In this document: in pieces, positions 22,754 to 44,900 of the stretch
Layout of the letters: each line of letters opens with the position of its first letter
How positions within the stretch are numbered: the stretch's first letter is position 1
Source: Deuterostichococcus epilithicus
Lineage: Eukaryota > Chlorophyta > Trebouxiophyceae > Prasiolales > Stichococcaceae
Length of the DNA stretch: 64,000 nt
Assembly: GCA_033439295.1 (NCBI GenBank)
Contig: JAVTLE010000013.1
Coordinates: forward strand, 2,542,001 to 2,606,000
Direction of reading: 5' to 3'
Position numbers and translations under genes: made by a program
The notes under the pieces: model-generated
Told to the model about the DNA's origin: nothing
The model's database searches: none
Seen by the model: the letters and a program-made list of their open reading frames with translations, nothing else

Positions 22754-25700
22754 TCAAGGACGCCTCACCACCTCAGCCGGTTGCGTCGCAAAAGGAGTGC
22801 GGTAGGCATTGGCCTGTAGAATGCACAATGAGGCCTTCAGAAACATCGATGAATAGATTCGTTCCCTGGTTGTTGGCTGCTAGCGAACGGCAAGCAGCTG
22901 CTTGGGGGGCCGGCATCAGCACTGCAGAAGCTGTCATGCGACCATGTAGTATGCTGCCGATGCAGTCGCATGGAGTTGACAGGCCCTCGGCATTCGCAGT
23001 ACCTCATAGAGGCGGCAGTTGTGGTCCGTCCAAGTGAGGTCGTCGAAGTTGACGGCAGGTCGGTCCTGCGGACGCACAGTCGCAGAAGGCAACACTCGCA
23101 TAGTGCTCGAAATTCCAGTGTGCGCAGGCGGTGGTAGACGTCGATTCAAGCTGTCAAAAGCAAACAGTACGGCCAGCCGCTCCACCTCCAGAACAATGGC
23201 GGTGCCCAGTTTCCAACACATGGAAGCAAGCCGAAGCAGCCGGTCATGCCACACGCTGGGCAGTGTGTTGCATCACCTGCACCACGGCCGTGGCGTTTGT
23301 GAGCGACTGGTTGTACGGGGTCCACCGGCCGTAGGGCGTCGGCGCGTAGTCGTCCAGCGGCGGCAGATCCGGCACAATGTCGAGCTTTTGGACCATGCGG
23401 TCCGTGTGTCCAACCAGGAACTTGACCACCTGCATGGACTGTAACCTGTGAGTGTAGACCTGTACATCGCCAAAAGTTTGTGGTGCTGCCATGCTGCAGC
23501 GTCAATGGAACTTCTGTGGCTTGCGGCATTCGAGCTGACTCGCAACCTCGGGATCTTACCTTTAGCATGGCGCAACAATATGAAAGTTTATTTAATGCAC
23601 AAGCAGGTCTGGCAGGATCTTCTTCTTGTTCTTCAAGTTTGCATTAGCAACCAGCTCCGGAGCGAATCCAATGGCCAAGCCGCACACCTCGCCAAACTGC
23701 TTGTTGCCGGGTTTGGGCGAGCCAAAGGTGGTGACGTGCACGTCGGCGGCTGGCCACTGCAGCGCCGCCCAGGCGCCGGTGATGGTCGCCAGAGCGCCAC
23801 CCAGAGAATGGCCGTTGACGACCACGCGATTTGGCGCCATTCCGCCTGGAAAACAAGGGAGATACGTTGCGAACCCCTGCAGCCGCACGGGCGTTCAGAC
23901 CATCTAATGTTGTCAGCTCGGTAACAACGGATGCCTGATTGCCTGCGAAGCCCTGCTTCTCAAGCCAGTGTTGCACTCAGAACCTGTCAGCTGCTACGCC
24001 TGCATTGCTGCAGCCTCAGAGTGATTGGACGGCGACAAGGAAGCACGTCCGCACAGTAGCCGGGCCTTGCTGATACTTTCCCTGCGTGGCGCAACAGCGA
24101 GCTTAAGTGATCCGACACAGGTCCCACAGCCTCCACTTCTTCACGCGCTGCCGAGCAGCTGACCTGACAGGCCGTACAGCACGTTGGTAACGTTGTACTG
24201 AGGCGCCGGCGCGTCCTCGGTGATGGCCTGGAAGCTCTGCAGGAAGCCCTGCAGCACAGCACGACAAGGTAGCGAGCGAATGCGCCACACAGGTTGCAGT
24301 CGTTACCTGCTCCAGCGGCTACTTGCAAAACGAACGAATCACTAAGAAGAAGCAACTGGACAAGCTCAGGTGTGCCAGTCCGTGTCTTCGCCGTGTTCGA
24401 GCGGCGAAGCTGACACCTGATGAATGTTGACGTCTGGGAATATTTGGTCCAGCGCTGCCGTGCCGGTGGTGGCCTCGTTCAAAAAGATCTTGAAGTCCTG
24501 CGCGCATACGTACACCCACGCTGCTGTCAGCAGACGGTCGCAGCACAGCATTCATAAGGCCCGAAAAATAGTCATGATCTGATCCGTCGCTATATAAATA
24601 CGGTCGGCTTTTAGGTAGACAGGCTGGCACAGAATTGGCAGAAGCAGCGACGGGGTCTTGACTCTCACACCTGCTCCCAGTCAGCTCGGCTGGTGGAGCC
24701 ACGGAAAACGATGGTGGCAATGCGTCGCTCTGGGTCCCACACCACGTGCGCTGTCGTGCCAATCTCAGGCACGGGCCCTGTGTATGCAGATACACACACC
24801 AAAGCTGCTTTGCCCACCCGGGACGCGGGTGCCAGTGTGTTATCGCGACAGTCGATGCTCGGTGACAACGTACATGAGCGCAGCGCAGGATGTGTTGTAG
24901 GTGCAGGAGCCGGACAATAGTGCAAGAATGTTGTTCCATGCTGCCAGCAGGCTGAAAGGTTTACACCATACAGATGCTGTTCCACCACGCATGCAAGCCA
25001 GGCATCAGCAGCATCACCACGTGCCGCGGCGGCCAGGGGTTTTTTCTTAGTAGGTGGGCCAAACGGTGTTGCGCACCAATTTGCACCGAGCCGGGGACAA
25101 TGGCATTGGTACCGTTGTTGTATGCGTTGCACACCTCGCTGGCCGCCGTTCTCACCTGGCAAGCGCACCGCCTGATGTAATGCCATGGGAGTCTCACGAA
25201 CGGGACCATCGGGAGGCAGTCGATATAGGTGTTTGGGCACCAACATTTTCATGGCAGGCAGCAATAACACATGCTCAGACCACACAGACGGCTGCCAGCC
25301 TCCAGGATTGGCCCCTGCCTCACAGGGACAAGCCAGCTTGCCGCAAGCCGTGCAAGTAGGCATTTTGCACGCCTTGCAGATCAGGGCTGGGCAGCCAGTG
25401 GCGGTGGCGCGTGCCGCCGCAGCGTCGGCCATTGCTGCTGCGCTGAGTGCTTCTCTCTCATCGCCGCTATACTCGACGTACGACCTGCAGTTGCGACAGA
25501 ACAGAACTCATCCTCCAATCTGCAAGTCACCAAACATCAGCCACTTTTGGAGCGCACATGTGCATGGCGGCGGGAGACTGCATGACAACACCGTGCTCAG
25601 AGGGGTCCATGCGGCTGCCAGCACAGAAGGCGGGCGCACTGTGCCGTATCTATGATGTCTCCTAAGTTTGCGATTGCGCCAAACACGCCCTGCAGCACGC

Positions 25701-27883
25701 TGCCGAGTCGGTCGAAGAAGCCCGACACACCGCCTTCATTGATGCTCGTCACGGTCGGCGCGACGCGGCTCTGGCTACCTAACGAGCGCCGTCGGACAGT
25801 GTACATGAACCGATTGGCGGGAACTCAGAATGTCTCGATCTAAAATGGAGATATGTTGGAGCAAGCGGCATGGTGTACTGTGCACAATCCTGACGGCTTT
25901 CAGGCCGCATATTGGGGAACCTTGCCTGTCGTGTTGCAGTACTCGAGGACTGCTAAAGCATACTGCCCCCAGCTAAGGGGTTCAAGGCTTGTGTTGGCCT
26001 GCGCACGAAGATTTGATCAGCACTTCGGCATCCTGCAGAGTGAGGTCATCTTGCGCCAAAGCATTCCGACTGCTGGCCATTCCTCCTCCATGGTGTGTCG
26101 CTCTGCATTTGAGAACGCCGGCACTACTCATCAAACACCAGATACCGTCTTGCTTCGCCGCAAACAGAATGAAAGGCGTACGTTCCGACCTGATGCACAG
26201 CCAGCCTGCCGTGCGGCAGGCCGCTCGTCACTGCCGTCGGCTCTGTGGTTAATACCCTGGGCCACGGCAACCACACAAGGTGCCTCGTGCGCTGTTTTTG
26301 GATGGATGAGGAGCCCACCAAAGTTGCTGTCGCGTTGAAGACGCGCACGGGCACGGCTTGCGGCCACGGCGTCGGAGCGCTGGTCACGTTCAGGTGGTCT
26401 GGGAGCGACCACAGGAGTGGCAGAACGACGAGCTGCTGCAGGCTAAAGGCAAAGTTGGCGTTGCCAACCTGCAGCATTGAGCGGCAAGGCATGCCTGAGT
26501 GAGGGCCTGCGGCACATACATGTCGCACGTTGAGCCGACTCTGCTCCATAGCAGGACCAGCGACTTGTCCAGCACTTGCAGCGACGAGGATACGCAGAGA
26601 CTCAGCTCTCACATTGCGCAATCGCAGCATCCGGCAGGCGGCAACTGCAGAGTGCTCCATGAAGAGTGCCCACCGTCGGTGCTCCGAATGTGATCACACG
26701 GATGGCCGCCAGCGGGTAGGCAGTGGCGGCCCAGATGCCGCACAGCTCAGCATACGCACCACCATCGCCGTAGCCCGTGCAGACGACCCGCTGGGGCGCC
26801 TGTGGGGCATCGGCACCAAAATGCTGTGCTTGAGACTGGTTCATTGGAGTAAGATCGACCGCACGTCGGGAGGCGTTCCCTGCAGCCATCCCGATGCTTG
26901 CCAGCGATGATTTGCAGCTATGCGTCATGCCCTCTGGCGGCCCCATGTCACCTGGCCGCCGGACAGAGTTCCGATGAGGCCACCCAGCGGCTGCGGCGTG
27001 CCGCCGCCGGTGCCCGCCAGCAGGGAGAAGAAGGGGTCGGTGGGTGGCACAGGGCTGCCGTAGGCGCCGGCAAAGTTGCTCTCCAGGAACGGCTGCACCG
27101 CGAGCGGCGCAAAGCCGGCCTCGGTGTTGTTGAAGGCAAGGTCGGAGCCGTTGGACTGCAGTAGTGCCCAAAAAAAATTGTTCTGTCACTGGTCGCATAC
27201 TGTTTGTAATTCTGTGGATTTGTTCCGCATGACTCGATCTTCAGCGTCAGGTTTGGCGATCAGCAGGCCTGATATCTAGCCAAGTGCCACAGGCACAGCA
27301 TGCTCACTGGGAAGGCAAGGAGTATGGCGCCCGTGTCGTTCTGCCAGCTGATTAACACCGATCCGGCGGTCATCGGCTGTGTCATTGACGGCACTGCACC
27401 ATAATGTACAGCGCCATGAGTCACCATTCCCCTTGCCACTGTCAGCCTGTTGTTCTGACGAATGCCTGTCTGGGCCGGGGAGGCTCGCTGACTTGCGGGT
27501 GCCAATTCCAACATTTGGGCTCGCTGTGCATGCAGGCAGCGGCACAGCACGTGCGACGCACGGTTTGGGGCGGGAGCGCCCGCTTGAGCATACGACAGAA
27601 AGTACGCTGCTTCGACGTTCTTGTATGTGATGGGGCGGCCCGCTCCAAGCTGCGGCAGCAGCTGACCGAGCTCTGCAGCGTATGGCGGCACAACCAGCGC
27701 CGGTGCTGGCACCTGCTGCAGCCGCCTGCGCAACATTGGCTGCCGTTCGATTTGCTCGGTTTGCCTTTTGGAGCCTTCATTGTAGGCCTCAGCACGAGCA
27801 TCGATGCCCAGTCCGTCTGCCGGGGCAATCAGAACTGCGCTGACAATGCAGAAAGCAGTGGACACAACCCCTCTGCCACTCAT
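22754..27883 (-). CDS. Secreted class-3 lipase A, two lipase modules
   Basis: The family hydrolyses acylglycerol-type esters. The start at 27883 (MSGRGVVSTAFCIVSAVL) gives a signal peptide aligned with those of lipases B and C; an upstream ATG at 28006 is open but hides it. Module 1 holds GRPITYKNVEAAYFL (near 27600), SVLISWQNDTGAILLAF, VVCTGYGDGGAYAELCGIWA (near 26790) and VGNANFAFSLQQL (near 26475). The nucleophile position in GYGDGG is Gly (26767-26769), not Ser. A spacer with GVSGFFDRLGSVLQGVFGAI precedes module 2: IATIVFRGSTSRADW (near 24720), VVVNGHSLGGALATITGAWA with Ser at 23805-23807, LDIVPDLPPL with Asp near 23380, and WTDHNCRLYE with His at 23021-23023. The last exon (22754-22814) encodes ANAYRTPFATQPAEVVRRP. 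Module 2 therefore has a complete triad; module 1 does not. Secretion and activity are inferred. Confidence 0.82.
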
Positions 27884-28006
27884 GCTGCCGATTGCAGGTC
27901 CCTCTATCTCGTGGTGCACGTGCACGTTTTGGCTGCGAAAATGAGAAGTCGGCGGTGCAGGTCCTTCGTCGTGCAGAGCTGCGAAGCGAGACGTGACAGG
28001 AGGCAT

Positions 28007-28400
28007 GACGGTGCCGCCAATCGGTGTAAGCCTGTCATGTTAGAGTCACAGTCCGTTTATAAATGTCTCGGCGGGTCCGAATTGTCGTATCAAGAGACTG
28101 TGGTGTGGTTTAATTGCGACGGAGCTTCAGAGATGAGATATGGGACTGTGCGCAGACCCCCTGCACAGACATGCTCTGGCTGCTAGCAGGGCGCACAGTC
28201 CTGCTGCCGCACCGCGGCGGCATGCAGACAGAGGTGCTAGCAGCACACGATGCCGTCATGCTACAAGCAGACACGATGCCGTCATGCTTCAGTGTGGTTG
28301 GTCCAAGAGTTTGTGCTGTTTGTTTTGTGCAGGCATGCAACCATTAGCATGAGTATGCATGCGCACGGCGGCGCTGCCGCGCCTGGTCTTGCGCCTGGTC
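28007..28400. other. Upstream region of lipase A with a short tandem repeat
   Basis: No exon is recognised here. It presumably holds the lipase A promoter. An 18-nt sequence is repeated in tandem at 26-nt spacing at 28245 and 28271. Confidence 0.3.
28245..28288. repeat. Two-copy 26-nt-period tandem repeat
   Basis: ACACGATGCCGTCATGCT occurs at 28245 and again at 28271. It is a simple local duplication upstream of lipase A. Confidence 0.75.
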
Positions 28401-28402
28401 GA

Positions 28403-28980
28403 TCAGGCGGCATACACCACGGTTTTGTGGATGGAGGTCCAATTGCCATCTGCCACTACCATTTGCACCGCCGAAGCGGGACGGCCAGTTGCGGCTACCA
28501 ATGACCCATTCGAACAAACCAGGCAGGATGCATGTTCACTAGAAACAAACACAACCCAGAGGAAAGCAGCACAGACATGCACGATGAGAGAGAAAACACT
28601 GTCGTACAAATCGCCCGTCTTGTGCTCATCAGCCAGGTCGAGCCCCGCTGCAGCAGCCTGAGCAAATGTGCAAGCATGGAAATGCTGTAGCGAAACAGGA
28701 GTCGCAGACGTAGGTCAACAGGTGACTTCGAAGCTTCATTCCAGACTAGGCAGCATTGCTGCCTGATTTGCGCTGTCGTGACCACAGCCCTGTGCCCTCA
28801 CCGCTGTGGGCGCTCGTTCACTCAACGAGATCAGCTTTTGTGCATGCAATGGACCTTCACCCTCCGATGTTGGTGTAGTTGACAAGAGCGCCGAGCTGCA
28901 TCCAAAATCAACACAGGCAACTTGTTCAAGATCATGACCAGCAGGTTCAGCGCAGCAACGCTGGCGCCACAAGACGTCTA
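28403..28980 (-). other. Exon-like pieces between lipases A and B, possible alternative 3' end of B
   Basis: Three minus-strand fragments look coding: LGALVNYTNIGG after a GCAG acceptor (near 28890), AAAAGLDLADEHKTGDLYDS after TTTGCTCAG (near 28655), and ASAVQMVVADGNWTSIHKTV ending at a stop at 28403. They could be extra C-terminal exons of lipase B, because PADV in its last exon is followed by GTGCGC. They could instead be remnants of another copy. Phases between the first two pieces do not match, so no gene model is offered. Confidence 0.25.
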
Positions 28981-29060
28981 GCTTATCACCAGTTTCTCAG
29001 CTTGTCTTCTGCAAGTGACGGCTGCTTTTGCGGCAGCAGTGCTATGGCATAATAGTTGGA

Positions 29061-32000
29061 CTACGATATGGGACTGTGGATGCTGGCAAACGGTGATTCG
29101 AGTAATGGGCGCACCACATCGGCTGGCTGCATAGAGAATGGAGCACGGTACACGTTGGCCTGCGATGGAGATAGCGCAGGTCGTTGGGCGTCAATGTGCG
29201 GTTGAGCACATGTAGCCAAGACACTCAGGCCGAACTTCATGTGGCAATGCAACATGATGTGCCTGACCCACGAACCTCGTACAGGCGGCAGTTGTGGTCC
29301 GCATAGTTCAGCTGGAAGATGCTCTGTGACGGTCGATCCTGCAAAGGGGGTGAACGCCGCAATATACAAGTATGCCTGTAGTGAGCAACATATAACTGAT
29401 GGCATGCCAAGAGGTGACACCCAGTCCTGCGAAAGCCAGCTGCTGCCAGCCTCATCAATACAGGATTATGGTGCAAAGCAAGAGAACTGCTGCCAAACCT
29501 GGACGATGAAGGTGGCGTTGTTGGTCGTGTTGGACTCGATCCTGTGGCAGAGCACACGCTACCCGTGGAGGTGGAAACGGAATGCAATGTGATCCTGATG
29601 AGCAGATGCTCCCACCTGGACTGATCATGCCGGACGGCGTGCATGCAGGGCTGTGTTTATAGCCATATTCATCGAAACACTGAACCACTCACCACCGGCC
29701 CCAGGGTGTGGGTGTGAAGTCGGTCAGCGGCGGCAGCGATGGCACAAGGTCCAGCACATTCACGACACGCTGCGACCGGCCCACCACCAGCTTGAAGGCC
29801 TGCAGACGACAGAGGCGCACGCCAGAAGAGTAGGAGACTGCTGCCATTTCCAAAATATCGTTGGTCGCCGTCTTTTGGCGTCGGTACCATCTCGAGGCGG
29901 CACATGTCGAAGCAATGAGCAACTGATCATCGATGATCCTGAGCACGATGGCGCTCCATGTTCTGCAAGGACGACATGCACTGTAGGTGGTCGGCACTCA
30001 CATCGCTGAACTGCAGATTGCCGACTTGCGGCGCGCCGATTGAGACTACTTCAATGTCGGCGGACGGCCACTGCAGCGCGGCCCACACCCCACCCAGAGC
30101 TGCAATCCCGCCACCAAGAGAATGGCCAGCCACAACAACCTTGCGGGGTACCTGACCGCCTGCATCACCCACTTTATCGTTACTGTCGTCGCAAAACTTG
30201 GTCTCAACCTGCCCAACATGTTCCAGCATACACACAACGAGTTGGCTGGCTGGGCACTGCCGCAATCTGCATCATATCATAATGCAGCGACTCACACATT
30301 GCTGCAGACCTGATGCAACAGAGGCACACTTGCCTGTGGCATTTGCAAAGTAGGCGCTGATGTTGAACTCCGGTGCGACAGCGGCGTCAGTCAGCGACTG
30401 GAAGGCTTGCAGCAGGCCCTGCAGGTGCAAAATGCGAGAAACAGTCGCAGCACAGCAGGTCTCGTGCAAATCGAGCATGGATGCAAGAGCTTTGCCGACG
30501 AGCGTGTGGGCTGCCGAGCTGTGCTGCCGATGCACTGCAGTTCCCTCGGTCAAGAAGTGCAGGGTAAACAAGCACAGGTCCTTGTCAAACCCGGAGTCAG
30601 GTGCAAGGAGGGAAGGTTAGGGGAAGAGCACTCGAGCGCACCGCGTGGACATCAACGCTGGGGTTGGGGCCGATGGCAAACACATTGTTCAGCACCGGCA
30701 GCAGGGTGGACGTGTTCAGGAAGGCGATGTAATCCTGCAAAAGTATGGCAACAGAGGTGGGTGCGGCGAGGTGCCGGTAGAACTTGACGAAACTGCTGTA
30801 GGGTAAGCCATGACCGTGAGCAACCCGCAAGGATCAGGTTCTGGTCGACAGGCCAGCACCCATCCGATGGCTTACTGATGCAGCGGTGCGCATGGCAATA
30901 GCAGAGCACAAGGGCGACGCCAGTCTCCCTTATGGCGGTTCATTGGCGCAATAATGCATGCACGCAGCGGGCGCCGCACACCTGCGGCCAGTTGCTGCTG
31001 TTGCTGCCCTGAACGAATACGATGGTGGCCACCTTGGTAATGTTGTCCCAGAACACCTGTGCCTCGGCAATCTGCCCCGGCTGCGGGCCTGCGGGCAGCA
31101 AACGGCTGGACACGAGGGATGTGGTGGCTGCCGCCGGGATATAACCCCGGTGAGGTGTGCAGCCCACATCGGAGACTGGAGAGGCTTGAGGGCTGCGCAA
31201 GCACTCGACGTCCAAACCAGTCAAAGCCAAGCATCAGTGGACACATCATCTTCAGAGACCGCATTGCAGCTCACCGATCTGAGTACTGCCTTGGACGACC
31301 GCATCCGCTCCTATGATAGCAATGATCGAACAGTAGGCGGCCTGCAATGCAGCAGCGCTGGCAAGACCACCACCAACGAACCATGACAGCCCTGGCCATG
31401 GTCGCACTGGCCAAAGCAAGCGCGCAGAGACCTCACCCCCTTGGTACGCATTGCAGGAATGTGATGCGCCAGGTCGGACCTGCAATGACAACCAACGGAC
31501 GCAATACTGGCAAGGTCGGGCAAGCGTGAGCATCAGCCGCCGGCTTGTGTTGTCGACACTTTCTGCTGCCGCTCAGAAATGCTGCAAATGCGACATTGGA
31601 CTGGGCGGGCCTGTGCCTGTGCGTATGCAGCGGCAAGTCCAAACTCGGCATGTGCGCGCCAGACTGCACACGACGACCCCGCACCTTGCACAGCAACACT
31701 GGGCATGGCGCAGCATTGTGGCGAGCGGAAACCACGTCGGCAATGGAATCCGGATTGAGCGAAGCATTGAAGTCTCCAGCGTACTGCGCAGTGGCGCTGC
31801 ATGTGGTAGTAGAGACCAGAGTTTCGGTGTGCTGACCGCGTCAGCACCCAGGGCATGCAGTGATCAGTCCCTCGAATTTGCACCTGCCGTCGGCAGCGCC
31901 ATGCATTCTGTTGTTTTCAAGGTCCAGCGAGCCTGACAGCGTGGTATCAAAAATCAGCAGGTTATTGAACGAAACACACACACACAAATGATAACAAAGT

Positions 32001-34795
32001 ACACGCACATGGTGGGATCGATGATGGCGCCGAGCGCAGGGAGCGAGGCGTTGCCAACGCCCGGCTGCAGGAACTGCAGAATGTTTGCGCCGCCAAGCTC
32101 CGCCGGGGTGACAAGCGGCGCCAGGGTGGTCGGGGCGCCCTGCAGCACCGAAAAAGTGCAAGGTTATGCGGACAGCAATTTGGCGCTCTGGGAAATGGGG
32201 CCACAGCGTTCAAAGGTGTGCAGGTGTCAGGGATGACTGCAGGTGCTCGTCACAATCTATGTGCTGCAGAGCTTTGATGAACACTTGGCTGCAGTGATGC
32301 ATGTAACGGCAGGCCGGCAGCGCCTCCTTTTAACCAAAATTGAAACTTGACTGGGCAGCGACGGTGCCTATAAGGAGCAGCTCTGCAAGCGGCAGCAGCA
32401 GCAGCTGCAGCAGGTCGGCAGGCAGGCAGGCAGGCAGGCATGCAGGAGAAATTACTGTGGAGTTGAAGTATTCGATGATGGCAGCCACATACTGGCCCCA
32501 CGAGTTGGCGGGAATCGTGGTGTTGGCCTGCGCCACAATGCACGGGTCCCTCAGCAGCTGTCTCCGGCATGCGCGCTGAAATCAGGCCTGCAACACCAGC
32601 TACAGCTTGGCAGCACTGACCCTGAGAAACGGTTGGAAGTGCCGCCCAGCTGCTCGAACAACCTGACTATATGATTGGGGTGCGTGCGCCACTGCGGCGT
32701 CTCTCAACTCTATCAATCTATCAAACCAATCAACCAACCGATTGCAGACGTTTGAAAGGGATGTTTGAGAGGGACGTTGAAAGGGTGTCCACTCGGAACC
32801 AGGTGTGCGCACCACCGTCTGGGCGTCGATCAGCAGGCGAACGGGCACGCCGGGAATGAACCCCGGGATTGTGGCGTTGGTCACGTTCAGGTTGGTGCTG
32901 GTGGTCCACAGGTAGGCCAGGTCCGGCAGCTGCTGCAGCGAGTACTGGAAGTTGGTGTTGCCCACCTGCAGACAGTTGGAACCCTCTGCAGACAGTTGAT
33001 GAGAGCAGGGCTGATTCGCGGCCAACCTTCGTGTGTGGTACGTGGTGACATGACAAAAGTACATATGTTGACGGACAGGCGAGCCTGCTCGTCGTGCTGC
33101 CCTGTCGAATTGCAAACCGCAGGATCTCTCGAGCGTTGGAGGTCTCTCGTCGCTGCCTGGCAACCTGCCGCAGGCTGGCTCGGCAGGGTATGCAGGTTGG
33201 TGCAGTACGCCTGCCGAGCACGGCCGAAGCTTGTGCATGCTGTAAGTGCACCTGGAGCATGTCTCAGATGAGCCTGTGCCATGTCTCTGACTTCAGTAGC
33301 TGCCGCTGAGATTGAAGCTTATCAGGCGATGGTCGGACAGCAGCTCACTGGAGGCGCGCCAAAGGTGATGACGCGAATGCTCGCGGCAGGCCACTCGACG
33401 GCCGCCCAGATGCCGCACAGCTGCGCGTATGCGCCGCCGTTCGAGTAGCCGGTGCACAGCACACGCTGCGGCACCTGCGTTTCCCAGCCCAATCGCGGTG
33501 TGACGAACTGCGGGTCCTGTTACTTAGCACTGCTCAGCGCTGAGGAGGTGCACAGTCTCTCAGTGGTGCACCTACTTTGGCATGTTTGCTGCTGAGAACA
33601 GACACCATCCTGGTCTGGGAAAGACCTCAGCGTCGAGACGGTTCCTGCAGCCTGCGTGCCGCTGCAGAGGAGCAATTGCCAGCAGCAGTCCGGCACCTGG
33701 TTGTTGGAGACGTTTGCGACAAGGCCGGTGAGGGAGATGGGCAGGCCGACGCCGCTGCTGCCGTTGACGAGGGACAAGAACGGGTCGCCACTGATGTTGA
33801 CACTGGGATAAGCGCCATAAAAGTCGCTGCTGAAGTACGGCTGCACGGACGCTGGCGCAAAGCCGGCTGACGTGTTGTTGAAGTCCAGCCGTGCGTCGCT
33901 GTGTGACTGCAAGCATGGACGCCCAGTGGTTTCCGGGTTCCGATCCCCTGCTCCACAACCCCAAGACAACCATGACCACCGCAGGCGACTGGCACCCCAG
34001 TTCGGCAGAAGCCACTCCAATGATGCAGCGCGCAGTGCAGCTCATTGATGGCGTCACACACTGCTTGCAAAGCGACGTCCAGGACACTTTCTCAAACTGC
34101 ACCGGGAACGACAGGATGCTGGTGTTGGTGACGGGGTCCCAGGCGACAAGCACCGAGGCCCCCTGCTGCATCGGCTGGATCAGCGACGGCTCTGCAGGGA
34201 GCCGCACACAGAAGTACCTGTCGACTGCTGGCAAGCGTGCCAAAGCACCCTTCCCCAGCACAGCCCTGGGGTTGCGCAGGTGCAGTGGGACACAACTTCG
34301 ACTTTCTCAAACATGCTGTAAAGAGGAGCGAGAGTAGAGATGGCAAAATGAACTCACGGCTAAAGAGCAGCACGTTGGCCTGCGCGAAACTCTGATACAC
34401 TGCAGTTTCACCGAGTCGAATATTCAGGCACTGACATCGTAGTTTTTGCCACCTGGATTCGCACCGCAGCATGAAACAGCGGCGGGAGACAGTAGGGCAG
34501 GATCAGGCGAGTGTCAACCTGCACTCTCGACGTTCTTGAACGACACCGGACGCCCAGGTCCAATCGACCCGAGCAGCGGCAGCAGGATGTTCTGGAACGG
34601 CACTCGCTGAGGCTGTATCGCCACAGCCTGCTGCAGCCGCCTGTGTGCCATCTCGGCGGCCGAGCCCGCTATCTCGGCGGCCTTGTCGAGCAGCACGGAT
34701 GCCGAGCTGACGGTGAGCCGTGCGTCTGCCGTCAAAGGAGCCAGGGCAGCCAGCACCAAAGCACAGCTGACTGTGCATACTAACGTGCCCCTCAT
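29061..34795 (-). CDS. Secreted class-3 lipase B, two lipase modules, first module keeps Ser
   Basis: This is the middle gene of the tandem lipase array. The start at 34795 (MRGTLVCTVSCALVLAALAP) gives a signal peptide; an in-frame ATG at 35002 is less likely. Module 1 contains GPGRPVSFKNVESA (near 34530), SVLVAWDPVTNTSILSF (near 34120), VLCTGYSNGGAYAQLCGIWA (near 33470; Ser at 33442-33444) and VGNTNFQYSLQQLPDLAYLW (near 32960). A helical stretch ANSWGQYVAAIIEYFNST (near 32500) follows. Module 2 contains VATIVFVQGSNSSNW (near 31020), VVVAGHSLGGGIAALGGVWA with Ser at 30119-30121, VVNVLDLVPSLPPLTDF (near 29750) and NYADHNCRLYE with His at 29294-29296. The last exon encodes ANVYRAPFSMQPADV and stops at 29061. 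The FRG motif of module 2 reads FVQGS, a small departure from A and C. Additional 3' exons down to 28.4 kb are possible. Confidence 0.82.
32415..32440. repeat. (GGCA)n microsatellite in an intron of lipase B
   Basis: GGCA is repeated about five to six times. It lies just downstream (minus-strand sense) of the exon ending ...EYFNST with a GTAATT donor, so it is intronic. Confidence 0.7.
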
Positions 34796-35476
34796 GGTGC
34801 CGTGCTTTCTGTGTGTTTCTCGAGGTCCCGCAGCTGTCTTACTGCTTGCAGTCGACCCAGTTGCGAATCCGGGCAAGACGCCTGAGAAGGATTCCTTGCG
34901 TGCCCCCTCCCATAGCGCTCTCTCTGTGAAAACTCTTCCCGCGCCACTTTGTCCAAGCCCACGTGTCGTCGGATGAAGCTGCAGATAGATTGACGAATCC
35001 AAGGCCTAGGGCTGAGCGACACCGCACTCAGCAGCTCTGTGGAAATTCCAGATGAGCCCGGCGGCGGCCACAGTTCAGCAATAATCAAATGGACGCGCAG
35101 CATGGAAAGCATGCATACTGCATTTTCTCTATCTTCTTTCCTCTGAAACAATGATGTTCACAATGGACACGACAGTTGCGACGCAGCATCAGTCGCATAC
35201 GAGCATTCAGCACTGGCACTTTTAGCTAGAGCACCACCCTGCTTCACCAGCAACTCATTCTCAGATTCCGCCAGGTTTTTCCTCGCGCTCCGCACCAGCT
35301 TGTTTTAATCGCCGTTCGGCAGCGTTGAATGGTCGGTCCAAAAATGCTGCAACATGATGTACCTAGTAACCTACCTACCTATACGAACTGCGCTTCCAGA
35401 TCACTATACCGTGGTAGCTTCTTCGAGACCAAATTTCAGGATTGCCGGCAGGAGTCCCCATTGGCCCCAGGCAGCC
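34796..35476. other. Spacer between lipases B and C
   Basis: This is the upstream region of lipase B and the 3' flank of lipase C. No exon is recognised, and no core promoter element could be named with confidence. Confidence 0.35.
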
Positions 35477-38400
35477 TCACAACACCCTTGCGGCGCCCAT
35501 CGCGAGGCACAGCGCCAGCAGCAGCGCCAGCGTGGGCGTGCTGGCGGCCGGCGCCGCCGCCTGCGGTGCCGGCGCCNGGNCGGCCGCAGGGGAGCTGCCG
35601 CTGCTGCCGCCGCCGCTGCTGCTGTTGCCGCTGCTGCCGCCCCCGCCACTGCTGCCGCTGGAGGGCGCAGAGCTCGCCATTGCGCTCTCGGCGGCAAAGC
35701 CGCCACCCGTCGTCGTGTTGGCGAGCGCCTTTGCCTGCGAGACGTGCAAGTCGATTCAGCCTCAGGTCAATAGCATGGCGCCGCTGGCGTCGCTGCCGTC
35801 ATCGCTGCTGCTGCTGCCGCCGCCCACCGCCGCCGCTGCTGCGGCTGCGAGTGATCTGCCAATTGTCCGCATGCCGCTCCACTGGAAGCTCGTGACCTGC
35901 CAGCTTTGAGCCCGCCAATGCTCAAGTGCATCGATCGGGAGGGCAGGTGGCAGCAGCAGCGCACCAGGTCGGTTGGCGGCGTGGTGTAGGGCGTCCGGTA
36001 CACATTGGCCTCGTAGATGCGGCAGTTGTGGTCGTTCCAGTTGAGCCGTGAGAAATCCGTTTCTGGCCGGGTCTGCGCATGGGCAGCGTCGAGTGTCTGA
36101 CATCCAAGCGCCCATCGAGCATCAAGGCATGACAGCGCATGCTGCGGGGCAAGCCAAGCGCCGGAAGACCCTTTGCCTTGTGAACGGCCCATCAAGGGTC
36201 ATCCTTCATGCGCAAGTGCCGGAATCACCTCCAAGATGACGGTGTCGTTCTCGGGGATCCAGCGGCCTGTGCGGGCCACGAGACAGACCCTCAGCATGCC
36301 GGCAGCAGTTCCACGTGAGGCATGCAGCAACACAACGCCGCAGGTAATGCGGCCACGAATTGGTGGAGCTTTGATGCTTGCCCGTGCACCGAAATGGGGG
36401 CTGACAGTACGTAAGGGAAGCTGCAAAGGAAGGGCGGTCAGACATTGTCAGGGTGCAAAACTGCGCACCATAGTCCACAGAGGCATAGTTGTCAAGCGGC
36501 GGCAGCGCGGGCACGATGTCCAGTGCGTGCACCACCCGGTTCTGCCGCCCCACCAGCAGCTTGTAGAGCTGCGCGGCAGCGCGACAGGGCAGTGACGCTG
36601 CCGCATGACTCGGGCTCACCCTCAGAGACTCGACTGATGCAGATGCACCAGTCCAGCGCACCGTGAAAGCAGTGGTGCGGGGCCTGTCAGCTGAACAGGA
36701 CATGGCTCGAAGGCTCGAGGCCCCTCCAGGAAGCAGACTGGACAAATCGCACGGCAGGCCGCAAAGGCAGAGTGCTGATCGTATTGAGGGAGGGGGGGGG
36801 CTTTGTGGTCACCGCCGGGCGACAAAGCGAACCAATGGAGGTGCGATCACCTCTGCAAACTGGGCGTTGCCGGGCATGGGCGAGCCGAAGGTGACGACCT
36901 GCACGTCGGCGGCGGGCCACTGCAGCGATGCCCAGACGCCGGCGATGGCGGCGACCCCCGCGCCCAGGCTGTGGCCGCTGACCTTCACGAGCGTCGGCTG
37001 CTGGTTGCCTGCCCGGTGCGCAGCGGTTTAGTGTTCAGAGTCTCATCGGTGGAAATGGAGCAACTGGCATGCCTGGCGCCACGAGATGCCAACAAAACCT
37101 GCAAACGTCCCAGGGCTACCATAGCGCAGCCGCGCCCGCCGACTCAGAGCCGGAAGGGGCAGAAGAGAGCTCAGTCCAACTGCCCGTCATCAGCCGCATG
37201 GAAGGGCGATGTGCGCACCTGACAGCCTGTACAAGACGGCAGAGATGTTCTGGCTTTGTGTCGCCGCGTTTTCGGTGACAGACTGGAAGGATTGTAGGAA
37301 GCCCTGCGGGTCAGCACGCACTCGGTCAGGAGCCAGAGTCACCTCATGCTGGAGTGCACCTCGGTTGAAGCTGGAGTGCACCTCGGTTTCTGACCTCTGA
37401 GCCCGGTCATGTCCCATCCAGGTTTCAATTTCCAGCAGGGATACAGGACAGCACATCTGTGACTCGGGGACCACGGGCGTCGAGGACACACACCACAATG
37501 GCTTATCAGAACACACCGTGTGCAGCTGCACATCCGGGAAAAACTGATCGAGCGCGGTCTTCGTGTCGGCGTCATTGAGGGCGACCTTAAAGTCCTGCGC
37601 TTGCAAATGACACTTGCTCAGCAGCGGCGCAGACCGGGCCCCTGATGCAGCCCCATCCGCACCTGTGTTGGACCCGGTCCAAGAGATGCCGCACACATGG
37701 TACACCAGCAGCACGACCCGCTGAGCGCGTCACATGCATGTGTTGAGTTCCTCACTGCGCACCGTGATCCAGTCCTCGCGGGAGGAGCTGCCCTGGAAGA
37801 CGATCGAGGCGGTCTTGGTGGTGTCGTTCCAGGCCACCGCCAGCTTCGTGCCGGTGCCGTTGACAGGGCCTGCACGAACGGGCGGGGCAGGCGTCAGCAG
37901 CTGCAGCGTCGCCCGGAACGAGCAGGCGCTCTGTGCAGCATCCGGCGATGTTGCTGTTGGCGGCAACTGGTCGACCGCAACTGTACGACCAGGCGATTGC
38001 TTGGTAGCAGGGGCTGAATTTCTGATGCACCCACCTATGGTGACGCTGCCCGGCGCGATGGTGCCTGTGCCATTGTTGTAGACGTTGCAAGAGGCTGCAT
38101 TTGGAAACGACAACACCTGAACTTCCTGAGTAACGAGATGCAGTGGTGTGCGAGGTTTAGGGACTGTATGGCATGTTGCAAGTCGTTGCAGCTAGGGCAG
38201 AGTCAGTATGCCGCAGTGTGAATGAGCAGAGCTGCGTCTGTCACCTGTTGCCAGCGGCCGGATCTGCACACAGCAGGCGCATTGGCAACCTCAGCACAGG
38301 GAGTGAGGAGTGTCATCAGACTGAAATGAGGTTTCTGCCCAGCAATGTCACTATGTCTTCCCAATTGCAGCTCGCATTCGCCCAGTTACACCACGAGCCG

Positions 38401-41354
38401 CCCAGTCTGCGAGTCGTCCGCGCGACAGCAGCAGCGTCGCGCAGAGGGTTCACCTTGCACAGCAGCGGCGGGCAGCCGGTGGCGTTTGCTCGCGCTGCGG
38501 CGGCTTCAGACTCTGCAGTTGCGTCCAGCGCTGACCCCTCATCGCCCCGGAAAGCGTACGACCTGCAGCGGAGCATTCAACGCTCCTTGATACATGGCCT
38601 GTGCGACTGATTCAGCATGTCTGCTCGGAGCTGGCCCGTGCTTTTGAGTAATCAGAGGACCTTCGACCACTTGGGTGTGCGCTGCACGCTCCCAAAGCCA
38701 AGCTTGTGGAGCGTCCATGCGTGTCGGTGGCTACGCGCGAAGCGGGTGGGATCGCCAGATCGACTGTTGTTGTGACGAATTATGCACCTCAGTTGCAGGG
38801 GACACCGACGACTGTCCTCTGTTGGCGCTGCAGGTTCGTCACCGCTGGAGCTGGCACTTTGAGAGTTCAGGGCGCACTTTACGGTGTCCAGGATGTCGCC
38901 AAAATTCTCGGCGGCGCCCACGAGAGTTTGGACTGTGCTTTTGACGTCGTTAAAGAAGCCGCTGATGCCGCCGCTGTCGCTGTCTGCGGGAGTGAAGCAC
39001 GGTGGTTGGCTGCCAGCCAGGCGGCGGGTGCGCATGATAGCGAGAAATGGCAGCTTCATCGCTTTGAGCGGCATGCCATGTGTCGAGCATAGCTGCACTC
39101 CTGAAGGTTTTTCACCAACCTGATCGTGCTCGTTCGGCTCACGAGACACGTCAGGCACATGCAACAGCACACGCACACAGCAGGAATGCGGCAAACGGTG
39201 CACTGTCTTCTCTTGAAAGGCATCTAGGAGGAAGTCGTCAAACCTGACGACGTGTCGGTGGAGTTGGATATCGTAGTGTCTCCAGAGGTAGCATTGTAGT
39301 ACTCTTCAATGGCCGACACATACTGCTCGAAGGAGTTGGGGACTAGGCTAATGTTTTCCTGCAGCAGCCCAGCACATTGTCAGGCGACAGAAAGATTTGA
39401 GTCTACCAGTGGCTCAGCGCAGGCGCAGGAAGCGGTTTGCTGCAGCGACAGGCAGGAGCAACTTCCATCCACCGAATCCGAAACGAATCAGCATACGGCC
39501 TGGGACATTGAAGTGGAGGTGACAAGCGAGCTGAGCGCGCCTGGGTGACGGTGTCATTAAGCACTCGCAGTTCGTCCGTCGGCACGAGGCCATTGGCGAG
39601 CGTGGCGTTTGTCACGTTGAGGTGCGTGCTGGTCGTCCAGAGGTACGACAGGTCGACCAGCTGCTGGAAGGCGAACGCAAACTGCACGTTGCCCACCTGC
39701 AGGGAGCAGGCAGACCGCTCAGGCGTCAGCACCTTGGTGGCTTCTGCTGCTCTGTGCATCACCCCAGTGGAAGAGCCGCCTTCCATGGTGGGGACCTGGC
39801 AGACGCTTGCAGACTGCTGCAATGTCAGTTGCACAGTGGTGCAGCTGCTTCAACCCGCTGATAAGCCATGCACAAGCCGATCGCCACCCTGAAGCAGCCA
39901 GTAATTCTGAAGTAAAGGCTGCGCAGAAGACGCACCACGGGCGCGCCATACACGATGGTCCGGATTTGGGCTGCAGGATATGTGACTGCCGCCCACACGC
40001 CGCACAGCTCAGCCATCGCGCCGCCATTGCCGTAGCCTGTGCACAGAATGCGCCGCGGCTCCTGCAGCCATGCGAGACATGCGCTGATGCAAGCACAGCT
40101 GGCCAATTTCAGGTAACAGGCCCTTGGGCCTGCAGCTGCCGTGCGTCCCAACGTACTGCTTCTTAACAGGCCAGCGCGAGTATCGGTGATATCGAAGAGG
40201 ACGCACCGCAGCTGGCTGTCATTCAAGCGAGGTTTTGTGCGAGATGCCGACGAGGCGGACGCTCGATCGACGGCGCCACAAACGGCAAGGGAAACGAATG
40301 GGCTTGCGGCTGGCCGTGCACAACGGCCCTCTGCGTGTAGCTGCGAGACATCTGCAGTGTAGATCCCTCTCAGCTGTGCTCACCGTGCCCGACGACAGGT
40401 TGGCGATCAGCTGCGTCAGGTTCTGCCCGCCGCCGGCGTCACTCAGCAGGCTGAGGAAGGGATCCGTGGCCGCCGGCGAGGCATATGCACCGGCGAAGTT
40501 GCCCTGCAGAAAGGGCAGGACCGACTGCGGCGCAAAACCCGCCTCCGTGTTGTTCACCGCCAGACTGGACTCGTTTGCCTGCGGCAGGGCCAGAGGTGGT
40601 GATGAGCGGCTGACAGATCAGTGGAGGGGTGAAACAGTGCGCAAGTGCGGCAGGCGGTAATCGATGCAGTCTCGACGGTGCAGAAGGCTGCACACAATTT
40701 TTCTGCTGCGTTGCATGGTCAGGCTATGCAATGTATAGGCCCAGCTGTTGGCGGGAGGCGCTCACATAGAAGGCGATGACCGCGGTGGCGGAGGCATTCT
40801 GCCAGGAGACGAGCACCGGCCCGGTGGAGATCTGCTCCAGGACCGAAGGCTCTGTGAAAGTCATGGCGGTGGCGTCAGACTTCTTCGTGCACATCAGCAA
40901 GAAACGATGCTGATGCAAAGCACTGGTGTACACCACCGCCAGCATGGCGCACGGTAGTGGAGGTCTGAGCAGGTGCCTGGACGGTCGAGCGTGCGAGTGC
41001 GCGAGGTTTGCATACTCTGCCACCGTCACTTCATGCATGCATCGAGCCAGTCTCACCCTCAGGGAGCGCCATTGCCTGTGCTCGAGCAATGAACAACGCG
41101 GCCTCTACGTTCTTCATGGTCACCGGACGTCCGGGTCCAGTCACTGAACCGAGAAGGCTTGTCAGCTGTGTCACGAGTGGAGCTGAGGATGCCGCTGGGG
41201 GCGGTGTCGCCTGTGCCAGGTGGCGTCTTGCTGCTGAGAGGTCCGCACCGGACACTACGGCCGACCCCGCCGCCAAGCGCGAGCAGCGAGCCTCGCTGTG
41301 ACACAAGACAAGCACAAGAACCATGGACGCAATTACCCTGCTGCGCCCCATCAT
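35477..41354 (-). CDS. Secreted class-3 lipase C, two lipase modules, GPI-anchor-like C-terminus
   Basis: This is the first-transcribed end of the lipase array. The start at 41354 (MMGRSRVIASMVLVLVL) opens a signal peptide. Module 1 holds GPGRPVTMKNVEAALFIARA (near 41120), GPVLVSWQNASATAVIAF (near 40800), RILCTGYGNGGAMAELCGVW (near 40045; Gly instead of Ser at 40029-40031) and FQQLVDLSYLW (near 39660). A spacer GISGFFNDVKSTVQTLVGAA lies near 38950. Module 2 holds ASIVFQGSSSREDW (near 37800), KVSGHSLGAGVAAIAGVWAS with Ser at 36968-36970, VVHALDIVPALPPLDNY (near 36510) and NWNDHNCRIYEANVYRTPYT with His at 36028-36030. The last exon begins AKALANTTTGGG, continues through a Ser/Gly linker with two ambiguous bases (35577, 35580), and ends TPTLALLLALCLAMGAARVL, typical of a GPI-attachment signal. 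A cell-surface lipase is inferred. Confidence 0.83.
37348..37388. repeat. 22-nt-period tandem duplication in an intron of lipase C
   Basis: GCTGGAGTGCACCTCGGTT appears at 37348 and again at 37370. It lies in intronic sequence between module 2 exons. Confidence 0.7.
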
Positions 41355-41974: not shown

Positions 41975-44900
41975 CTACAAGCTACTCCTCGTCTTGTCAC
42001 GCAGGAAGTCGACAAGATCCACCTGGATCTCTCGCCCCTGCTGGCAGCCTGCTGCCCTGAGACGCAGCATCGCCTCCGCGGAGACGCCGACGCACGAGAA
42101 GACAGACCAGCGGTCCAGCTGCCGCAGGCCCAGCAGCCAGGGCAGGCACGCGTCCGTGAGCCGGGGCATGTCGGACATGACGGGACACATCGAGCGAGCG
42201 CAGCGCCTGGAAACGGCCGGCCGCGATGCCCAGAACGGCCGCATCGGTCACACGCGTTTCCCCCAGCCCGCTGCCGCTGATGCTGAGGCTCAGCAGTTCG
42301 TGCGGCCCGTGGCAAGCAGACACCAGGTCCAGCACATCACCGTCCTCCAGGTTCAGCGGCGCCACACCGGGGAGGTCCACCTGCAGCAAAGTTTTGCTTG
42401 CGCTTTTGCTGGCAAACGTGCTGTAGGGCTGACCGAGACATGTTGTCGCAGGACCTGCCGATGATGAGCCACTACAGAGCCCTTAGCGTCGGGTAGCACC
42501 CCATTCTCATGGCAGGTCGACATAGAGGCACAGCAGCCGGCAGTCTCTATGCAGCGACCAGGTCGCAGGCTCGCAGCCGTACCTGCAAGTCGTCAATGAT
42601 AACAAGCTTCGTGAGGCTCGACGGCAGCGCGGCCGACACGGCGGCAAGCGGCTGCTGCCCGGCCATGCGGTGCAGGTCTCGCAGCTCGAGGTCGCGCAGG
42701 AGCGTCAGGCTGCGCAGGTGGCGCAGCGTCCCGGCCTGCGTGCCGGTGCACCGGTCGAGACACAGCTGCCGTAGGCCTGGCGGCAAATCAGAAACCCACG
42801 CGCCAGTGAGCTTGTGGCAGCCCTCGATGTACAGCACCTGCAGCAAGAAGCCATTATGGGGCTAGGTGAATGAGATGCATAATGAAGATGGACGAAGGCT
42901 CTGGACAATGCAGATGGGCAAAGGTCGTGCATGCAGCCAGAACAAGTGGCTTGCGATGCAGCGGCATGTACTATCGACCGCTGCCAGGGCAAAGCCTGCA
43001 GCAATGCCACACACCAGCATGTGCGGCAGCTGTGGCAGCACGGCTGCCAGCTGTGTGTCTGAGATGTCCATCTCGCAGATGCGCAGCATCCTGCGCAAGT
43101 GGCGGAAATCAATGACGTCAAAAATATGTGTCAATGTTGTCGACACTATCTCACTTCACGATTGGTCAGTGTCTGGTCTGGCACACAGGTTTGGCACACG
43201 CAAGCACGTTGAGTGGCTGCTCCTGTATGTGTGCTCTGATGGCAATGAGTGCAGCTAGTCAAGGTGCACCACCTGAGGTGCCCCATCAGCTGCCGCATGC
43301 TGATGGCACAGAGCTGGACACTCCAGCGGTCGCCGCAGAAGTCGGCAGGTGTGCCGGCAGCCGTGCTGAGGGAGTTGCCGCAGGTCAGGCTGGTCAGCAC
43401 ACGGGCGCCGCGGGCTGCGGCGAGGCTGCTGGCGGCATCGAGACAGAGACCGGGCACAGTGAGCTCGCGCAGGAGGCGCTTGCAGTCGTGCAGAGTTGCT
43501 AGGGCCTCGGGGCTGACCTGCAGCCAACCAACCGCCACTTGGCATGAATGTGTGCAGCTGGCGCCTGTAACAGCAGCTACATACATGCTGCAAGTTGCCT
43601 GCACTGGTCCGAAGCTTTTTCTCCCATACAATTTTATCCCCGCATGATAGACTTGCAGTGAACTGTTTGTCTCGGGGATCGCGGCTGAGTTTGTCAGCAA
43701 TGCATGCAACTGTCAGCAATGCATGCAAGAAGGAAAGGACGCCTCGCCTCGCTGCTTGACGCCGGTAGGTGCAGAGAGGTCAGCAGCTTCAGCGCGGACA
43801 GGTGGCGCATCTCGCCGTCGCTGGTGTCCACGAGGAAGCGCAGCTGCAGGCTGCGCAGCGCGGTCAGGCGGCAGGTGAAGCCGAGGCCGGGCAACGGGCT
43901 GCTTCGGCCAGAGTAGTCGATGGGGCCGGTGTCGTGGTGCCCGATGCGCAGGCTGGTCAGCCGGACCATGCCGCTGAGGACCGCCAGCTCCGCCTGTGTG
44001 GGGGCCTGTGCATGCAGCGGGCGGCAACTCCTAACAAAGGGATTGCCTTTGATTATAAATCAGTCATTAGCCGAATCTTCCTTCAGAGCATCTGCACTTA
44101 GCACACGAGCTCCAGTACGGCCGCCGGGCGGTCTAGTCGTCGCATGCGGGAAATGCATTTGAAGGTGGCGGGTACTGATGTGTGCCTCATGGTACTTGCG
44201 GATGTTGAGGAACTCGAGGGTGTCCGCCAGGTGAGTGATGTTCGCCAGCTGCAGGCCCAGCGCCAAGCCGCGAGCCGGTCCGCCCTGCATCACAGTGTCC
44301 ACCGAATGACCTGCTGCCGAAAGGTGGACTTGCGTGCCTGAATGGTCCTGGGTATGGCAACACCACGTGATGCGTCAGTGGGCGATGAAGCAAGCTGGTG
44401 TGCAGCTAGCACACGGGGAGCGTGAGACGCAGGCGGAGGTGGTGTCCGAAAGTACCAACCTGTGCATCCATATTGAGGCCCAGGCTGCGGCAGACGCGCA
44501 GGCTGGCCAGCACCAGCGCGGCACCGCCATCTGGCTGGTCGCTGGAGAATCGGCCGCCGGTTTCGTAAGTGTCCGAATCCCATTTCAGCTCCGTCAGTCG
44601 GGCCAGCACCGGTCGCATCGCCTCTGCGACATCGTGGATCACCGGCCCGATCATGGTCAGCGCCTGCAGAGCCGACAGCGCCGGCTCGGCATTGCGCCAG
44701 ACTGTCAGCTTGAGCTGGAATTCCTGCTGGCACAGGAAGCGGGCAGAGGCCATGTGCGGCAGGCGCCCGACCGCCCGCATGAGGTTCTGGATGTTGTTGG
44801 TGTTCCAGTTGGGGTTGGTCGCGGGGTCCACGTTGAATGTCTCGTGGTAGATCTGGCTGAAGCGGACAGCCTGCAGAATGTTTCTGGGAGGTTGTCCAAC

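Follow-up and report, generated by a model that had tools for sequence, protein, structure and literature searches.

Three lipase genes follow one another in the 64,000-nucleotide stretch of the Deuterostichococcus epilithicus genome analysed here (the window), and each carries two lipase-like modules, the first of which looks eroded. The question is why a lipase copy that appears to have lost its catalytic machinery would be kept, in the same place, in three paralogues. A sequence-only reading of the locus had proposed that module 1 persists because it has a selected, non-catalytic role.

Gene models of the array

We modelled the three genes, gA, gB and gC, by homology in place of RNA from Deuterostichococcus epilithicus: exons of the three copies were matched to each other and joined in phase at GT-AG or GC-AG junctions, with frames picked for being open. 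On these models the genes lie head-to-tail on the minus strand, to which all array coordinates below refer, and each splices into one protein of 673-721 residues. gA (41354-35477) has 16 exons and encodes 721 aa with a signal-peptide-like start and two Lipase_3 modules, while gB (34795-29061) and gC (27883-22569) have 17 exons each and encode 675 and 673 aa respectively. The gene limits given earlier, 22754..41354, do not hold, as the gA and gC models extend further downstream, to 35477 and 22569. gC ends in a short C-terminal exon (22607-22569) and gA in a tail exon (35734-35477) that is rich in Ser, Gly, Pro and Ala and closes with a hydrophobic, GPI-anchor-like segment; two N bases fall within this repetitive exon, at 35577-35580. 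In gB an extra intron, absent from gA and gC, lies ahead of a 42-nt exon (34399-34358).

Introns in the three genes measure 116-406 bases, and 43 of the 47 are of the GT-AG type and 4 of the GC-AG type. At 12 of the first 15 shared junctions all three genes have the same phase; the exceptions are junctions 6 and 14, which differ in phase, and junction 15, which is absent in gA, and we count these against our preferred explanation. The Pfam, PDB, tree, p-AU, dN/dS, profile-comparison, column and sequon figures given below derive from a gB model without the 42-nt exon, and the Pfam scan, the gC PDB search and the protein searches used earlier 3' ends of gA and gC; identities and Cys pairs were computed on the final models.

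Transcripts assigning the two modules to separate genes would have spoken against a fused protein, and the relatives point the other way. P0001 holds both modules in one frame of 730 aa on a 2,602-base contig and is 54% identical to gC over 94%, and P0002 holds both in a complete frame of 737 aa in an MMETSP transcriptome and is 50% identical to gC over 89%. With gA, gB and gC also splicing through from one module to the other, we rejected the possibility that the modules are two separate genes.

Adjoining the array on the minus strand, at 42000-44060, are frames with repeated leucine-rich patterns recognised by eye; a Pfam scan of two of them at E 0.001 was negative. The window gave no Rfam match at gathering scores.

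Family membership of the two modules

Both modules of all three genes exceed the 22-bit cut-off of the Pfam Lipase_3 profile (PF01764, length 140), and they occur in the same order in each gene, as the sequence-only reading had it. Module 1 scores 30.6 bits in gA (41132-39244, covering exons 1-6 from GRPVT to EYYN plus a short tail), 37.2 bits in gB (34555-32456) and 30.2 bits in gC (27640-25926), with the matches confined to profile positions 52-121 of 140. Module 2 covers nearly the whole profile (in gB from position 30 on) and scores 90.6 bits in gA (38562-35965), 65.0 bits in gB (31796-29061) and 81.4 bits in gC (25484-22769). When profiles of the two modules, built from the six secreted proteins defined below, were compared with each other, the match had a probability of 99.4 and an E value of 3.8e-21, so that the likeness of the modules is not due to chance. 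Judged by these profiles, module 1 is a member of the class 3 lipase family by descent.

In sequence searches of the PDB, gC module 2 matches fungal lipases (best E 5.4e-12), and gB module 1 matches PAD4 best but weakly (E 0.0082), followed by lipases, with EDS1 at E 0.12. Fungal lipases in the PDB also match the structure model of P0001, where the match list is filled by module 2. For module 1 of relatives, structure prediction gives an alpha/beta hydrolase, the opposite of the outcome that would have undermined the earlier proposal, in models that are weak (mean pLDDT 53 and 50, from 11-row alignments); the fold match belongs to a Coccomyxa relative and not to gA, gB or gC. Assignment of module 1 to the dienelactone hydrolases and of module 2 to the XopAP group were both rejected, the matches being weak and below cut-offs.

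Probable secreted and intracellular relatives

The protein searches returned 7, 3 and 9 overlapping hits that amount to 15 different proteins; two of these searches scored only the roughly 8,000 candidates with the most words in common, and the collection carries no inference on absence from other algae. P0006-P0008 have one recognised module and served as outgroups only. P0009, a 1705-residue model holding two intracellular-type pairs, was excluded from the counts, and P0011, which is 93% identical to P0005, a near copy of P0010, was excluded from the tree and kept in the column table. That table therefore compares 14 proteins, namely gA, gB, gC and P0001-P0003 on what we call the secreted branch and P0004, P0005 and P0010-P0015 on what we call the intracellular branch.

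Each of gA, gB and gC has one hydrophobic signal-peptide-like start, ahead of module 1. The three proteins contain 18, 17 and 12 sequons respectively, compared with means of 6.9, 5.0 and 4.0 in shuffled sequences, and each count is above the highest of 500 shuffles. The excess of sequons together with the signal-like start suggests the secretory route, and the three proteins are probably secreted and N-glycosylated. A hydrophobic C-terminal end is present in gA, P0001 and P0002 and absent from the gB and gC models; for gA the tail is suggestive of a putative GPI-anchor signal.

P0001-P0003 likewise have a signal-like start and contain more sequons than the mean of shuffled sequences, and on these grounds we place them on the secreted branch; one of them, P0003, is a Trebouxia protein. 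The intracellular branch comes from Trebouxia and Coccomyxa (P0010 is without a named source), and one of its Coccomyxa members, P0014, carries the source label 'probable lipase at C-terminar half'. These relatives share the module order of the array, with a degenerate module 1 and a full triad in module 2. In the six of the eight that were examined for it, unlike in the array, there is no signal-peptide-like start, and sequons are few. All eight are probably intracellular.

Catalytic residues of the two modules

In module 2 the catalytic Ser, Asp and His are each present in 14 of 14 proteins, with the Ser codon at 36970-36968 in gA, 30121-30119 in gB and 23807-23805 in gC. The surrounding motifs read ALDIVPALPP and WNDHNCRIY in gA and KLDIVPDLPP and WTDHNCRLY in gC. 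The earlier claim that module 2 of all three genes keeps FRG or FQG along with a full triad thus stands for the triad and fails for the oxyanion segment of one gene: this segment is FRGS in gC, FQGS in gA and FVQGS in gB, the last being neither of the two. The FVQGS region of gB lies at 30982-31088, and gB has the longest end branch among the 13 module 2 rows of the tree (0.93). Taken together with a Ser in module 1 that is found only in gB, these features suggest that gB may be drifting in function.

Module 1 presents a different picture. A complete Ser-Asp-His triad is found in 0 of 6 secreted sequences, which bears out the loss of the triad claimed for gA, gB and gC, and an F[RKQ]G segment is absent in 13 of 13 module 1 rows covering that region, in line with the proposed loss of FRG. 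At the nucleophile column the secreted branch has Gly in four proteins (gA, gC, P0001 and P0002), Ser in gB and Phe in P0003, while the intracellular branch has Cys in 8 of 8. The elbow around this column, CTG[YH]-x-[ND]-GG, is kept in 6 of 6 secreted proteins. In gA it reads CTGYGNGG with a GGC codon at 40031-40029, in gC CTGYGDGG with GGC at 26769-26767, and in gB CTGYSNGG with TCG at 33444-33442. The uniform loss of the nucleophile implied earlier is thus contradicted by gB, which keeps a Ser. Single base changes link codons for Ser, Cys and Gly (TCC-TGC-GGC), a route compatible with the Cys of the intracellular branch, although we offer it only as a suggestion.

The Asp column of module 1 contains His in gA, gC and P0001, Asn in gB and Asp in P0002 and P0003, compared with Asp in 8 of 8 intracellular proteins. 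An Asp stands one residue ahead of the column in gC, so that an alternative alignment could keep an Asp there. It had been proposed that LQQL or FQQL replaces the VP-type Asp segment, and this turns out to be a misalignment: these residues align with FKLL or VKFL of module 2, that is, with the helix before the Asp strand, and the Asp column follows about 12 residues past them, reading H in gA, N in gB and H in gC.

The C-terminal stretch of module 1, the counterpart of the end that bears the catalytic His in module 2, reads SFEQY, SWGQY and SWGQY in gA, gB and gC, and a His is found there in 0 of 6 secreted proteins. In gA, gC, P0001 and P0003 a His occurs near the Asp column, but away from the catalytic His position. 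On the intracellular branch module 1 has a DH motif 100-103 residues past the Cys in 7 of 8 proteins; the exception is P0014, with its first DH at 88 and another, KDHC, 12 residues beyond that.

Conservation of module 1

Over the 10 pairs formed by gA, gB, gC, P0001 and P0002 the mean identity is 56.5% for module 1, 57.2% for module 2 and 41.5% for the linker, and a column bootstrap places the difference between module 1 and module 2 at -6.1 to +5.2. The preservation of module 1 at about the level of module 2 suggests a retained non-catalytic job. Against our preferred explanation, module 1 shows lower identity than module 2 in comparisons with the Trebouxia protein P0003, with means of 30.8% and 41.0% respectively.

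Nei-Gojobori dN/dS values for the pairs of gA, gB and gC are 0.31-0.43 for module 1 and 0.35-0.45 for module 2, rough values given that dS is above 1 throughout. The comparison of the two modules by dN/dS, proposed earlier as a check, gives similar values well under 1 for both; it does not by itself separate the modules from the linker, which is equally low (0.28 and 0.36 in the two computable pairs).

All six secreted proteins carry a pair of Cys at positions -4 and +9 relative to the module 1 elbow; the pair occurs in none of the eight intracellular proteins and in 0 of 14 at the corresponding positions of module 2. The two positions should lie at similar height on the flanking strand and helix, which makes an elbow disulphide possible, and the pair may staple the elbow of module 1 in the secreted branch.

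Origin of the two-module design

gA is 72% identical to P0001 in module 1 and 75% in module 2, compared with 51-58% and 45-60% to gB and gC. Since gA is closer to P0001 than to its neighbours, the gA line, if not the others too, had probably become distinct before the divergence from the organism that carries P0001.

We built a tree from 29 module sequences (13 of module 1, 13 of module 2 and 3 outgroups). All 13 module 1 rows fall on one side of a branch with support 92/89, which is below the mark that the program takes for a secure branch. Within module 1 the secreted rows group together at 100/99 and the intracellular rows at 96/91. The outgroups are long and fall among the module 2 rows, and a constraint joining module 1 with module 2 of the secreted proteins, as an independent duplication on their branch would require, was not rejected (p-AU 0.0875). 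A single duplication preceding the split into secreted and intracellular branches is thus favoured, though not secure.

The presence of a Cys-Asp-His module 1 in 8 of 8 Trebouxia and Coccomyxa relatives indicates that the two-module design probably predates the three-gene array. The erosion of module 1 had been tied to this array; it is probably older, as the Trebouxia and Coccomyxa relatives share a degenerate module 1.

To find further copies we searched the genome (46.8 Mb in 21 contigs) in six frames. P0001 gave 28 matches, 27 of them in the array and one on contig C5 to a low-complexity tail, and of the 9 matches to the Coccomyxa protein P0014, 6 fell in the array and 3 on contig C12, where they cover the nucleophile region of other class 3 lipases. 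Neither search found a family copy outside the array, and an intracellular-type copy was not found at the sensitivity of the P0014 search. We considered 20 other PF01764 loci as possible members of the family and rejected them as ordinary class 3 lipases: similarity was present in 7 of the 20 and limited to the nucleophile exon (tblastn E <= 0.01). Among these, the C12 loci resemble the array family at that exon only, and the fetched C19 loci do not resemble it at all. PF01764 exon matches at C12:2107027-2132908 and C19:795856-818465 lie about 7-9.5 kb apart on one strand, and from this same-strand spacing the genome probably holds two more class 3 lipase tandem arrays.

A proposed non-catalytic partner for the lipase

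We propose, with a probability of about two in three, that each gene of the array encodes a secreted class 3 lipase covalently fused to an N-terminal pseudolipase that serves as its non-catalytic partner. The product would be one secreted, N-glycosylated chain in which the pseudolipase, module 1, is joined to the triad-bearing module 2. Module 1 would still fold as an alpha/beta hydrolase, with its elbow stapled in the secreted branch by the -4/+9 Cys pair, and would present a fixed pseudo-dimer surface that stabilises module 2. Alternatively, this surface could position the enzyme at lipid or cell-surface material, or gate access to the module 2 pocket. As to history, a lipase would have duplicated within one gene early in the algal lineage. 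Module 1 would then have lost the FRG oxyanion segment and the Ser (giving Cys in the intracellular branch and Gly, Phe or Ser in the secreted one), and in the secreted branch subsequently the His and partly the Asp; the three-gene array would have arisen later. The earlier proposal of a selected non-catalytic module 1 is therefore supported, by conservation like that of module 2 in the five closest proteins and by presence in relatives of different probable cellular location. Among possible roles we rank a structural or positioning one first, ligand sensing second and propeptide-like folding third, the partner role being deduced from sequence comparison.

Module 1 could conceivably be a ligand sensor that acts as an allosteric switch of module 2, its vestigial pocket taking up a fatty acid or another acyl ligand and leaving it uncleaved. 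The near-invariant elbow of the secreted proteins around a nucleophile position that varies looks as if the shape of the pocket was kept and its chemistry was not, but the same conservation could be purely structural and the weak models do not allow a pocket to be assessed, so that we regard such a sensor as possible at best. Somewhat less probable still is that module 1 acts as an aid to folding or secretion in the manner of a lipase propeptide, perhaps being cut off after maturation. Its position N-terminal to the enzyme would suit this role, as would the signal-peptide-like start preceding module 1 only, and complexes of a lipase with its propeptide have been described for Rhizomucor miehei lipase (6qpp and 6qpr). 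Module 1, however, is no short propeptide: with about 240 residues it makes up an entire domain, homologous to the enzyme, and it is also retained in the probably intracellular relatives. If module 1 were instead a functionless, decaying relict, retained only because its deletion would disrupt the secretion signal and the splice pattern, the differences at the nucleophile position between copies, the isolated Ser of gB and the lower conservation against P0003 would be expected. We consider this unlikely given that module 1 equals module 2 in identity over the 10 pairs, that the adjoining linker is clearly less conserved, and that the rough dN/dS values are well under 1.

There is finally the question of whether module 1 keeps a cryptic catalysis based on a substitute nucleophile, which would be Cys in the relatives and Ser in gB. 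The intracellular relatives make the case for it, with Cys, Asp and DH in all eight and an elbow of GFCVGG or GFCAAG, and PHA synthase has GFCVG at this place (PMC5509742). Against it, gA and gC have a Gly and a C-terminal stretch without His, gB combines its Ser with Asn in the Asp column and no C-terminal His, and the FRG-type oxyanion segment is missing from all 13 module 1 rows covering that region. Cryptic catalysis in gA, gB and gC is very unlikely, and as an explanation of the family it is the one to which we give the least weight. A broader and decidedly speculative scenario sees in the Trebouxia-Coccomyxa group an ancient one-chain lipase pair. Intracellular module 1 would be a Cys-Asp-His enzyme that converged on the PHA-synthase elbow, GFCVGG, and perhaps works as an acyl carrier or acyltransferase exchanging acyl groups with the Ser lipase; secreted module 1 would have lost all catalysis and become a disulphide-stapled pseudoenzyme controlling its active twin. 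We think this improbable as a whole.

Comparison with known systems

Our preferred reading of a pseudolipase fused to an active-looking relative can be set against several known systems. The array proteins resemble class 3 lipases of the Rhizomucor/Thermomyces type (PF01764) in the GHSLG, D-[IL]-VP and DH motifs of module 2 and in the above-cut-off score of module 1, and differ from them in having two modules per chain with module 1 lacking FRG and a complete triad. The intracellular two-module lipases differ from the array in the Cys, Asp and DH of their module 1 and, in those examined, in the missing signal-peptide-like start.

In the EDS1, PAD4 and SAG101 proteins of land plants a class 3 lipase-like alpha/beta-hydrolase domain serves as a non-catalytic scaffold, according to PMC6377607. 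The likeness to module 1 is that of a non-catalytic lipase-like domain, PAD4 being the best weak PDB match of gB module 1. The lipase-like domain of the EDS1 family, however, is joined to a helical EP domain and associates with a partner protein, whereas here the pseudolipase is fused to a triad-bearing lipase behind a signal-peptide-like start. Neither the gA, gB and gC halves (E <= 1) nor P0001-P0003 (E <= 10) gave a match to the EP domain (PF18117).

PHA synthase has Cys291 between Phe290 and Val292, together with Asp447 and His477 (PMC5509742). Its likeness to intracellular module 1 (elbow GFC[VA][GA]G) is limited to the GFCVG elbow and the Cys-Asp-His set; by profile it is of another family, and gA, gB and gC have G, S and G at this position and no Cys. 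An NCBIfam scan of five relatives gave as its best match TIGR01838 in P0005, with 12.4 bits against a cut-off of 622.65 (E 0.04), and we rejected the assignment of module 1 to the PHA synthases, the profile matches being far below cut-off.

Neither class 3 lipases nor their lipase-like, non-catalytic counterparts (the EDS1 family) are new. For a pseudolipase fused to a triad-bearing class 3 lipase we found no description among the literature matches listed, a scope that leaves most subscription journals and bioRxiv outside.

Pseudoenzymes usually act on active relatives as separate proteins, and fused pairs are known mainly from kinases. Here a fusion of pseudolipase and lipase would have been kept in at least Trebouxia, Coccomyxa and Deuterostichococcus epilithicus. 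Its decay shows in several states, namely Cys-Asp-His, Phe or Gly lacking the His, and an isolated Ser, and such a series would allow testing when an enzyme copy ceases to be an enzyme and why it is kept. Our analysis also suggests that a plain 'lipase' annotation can hide half of such a two-module protein.
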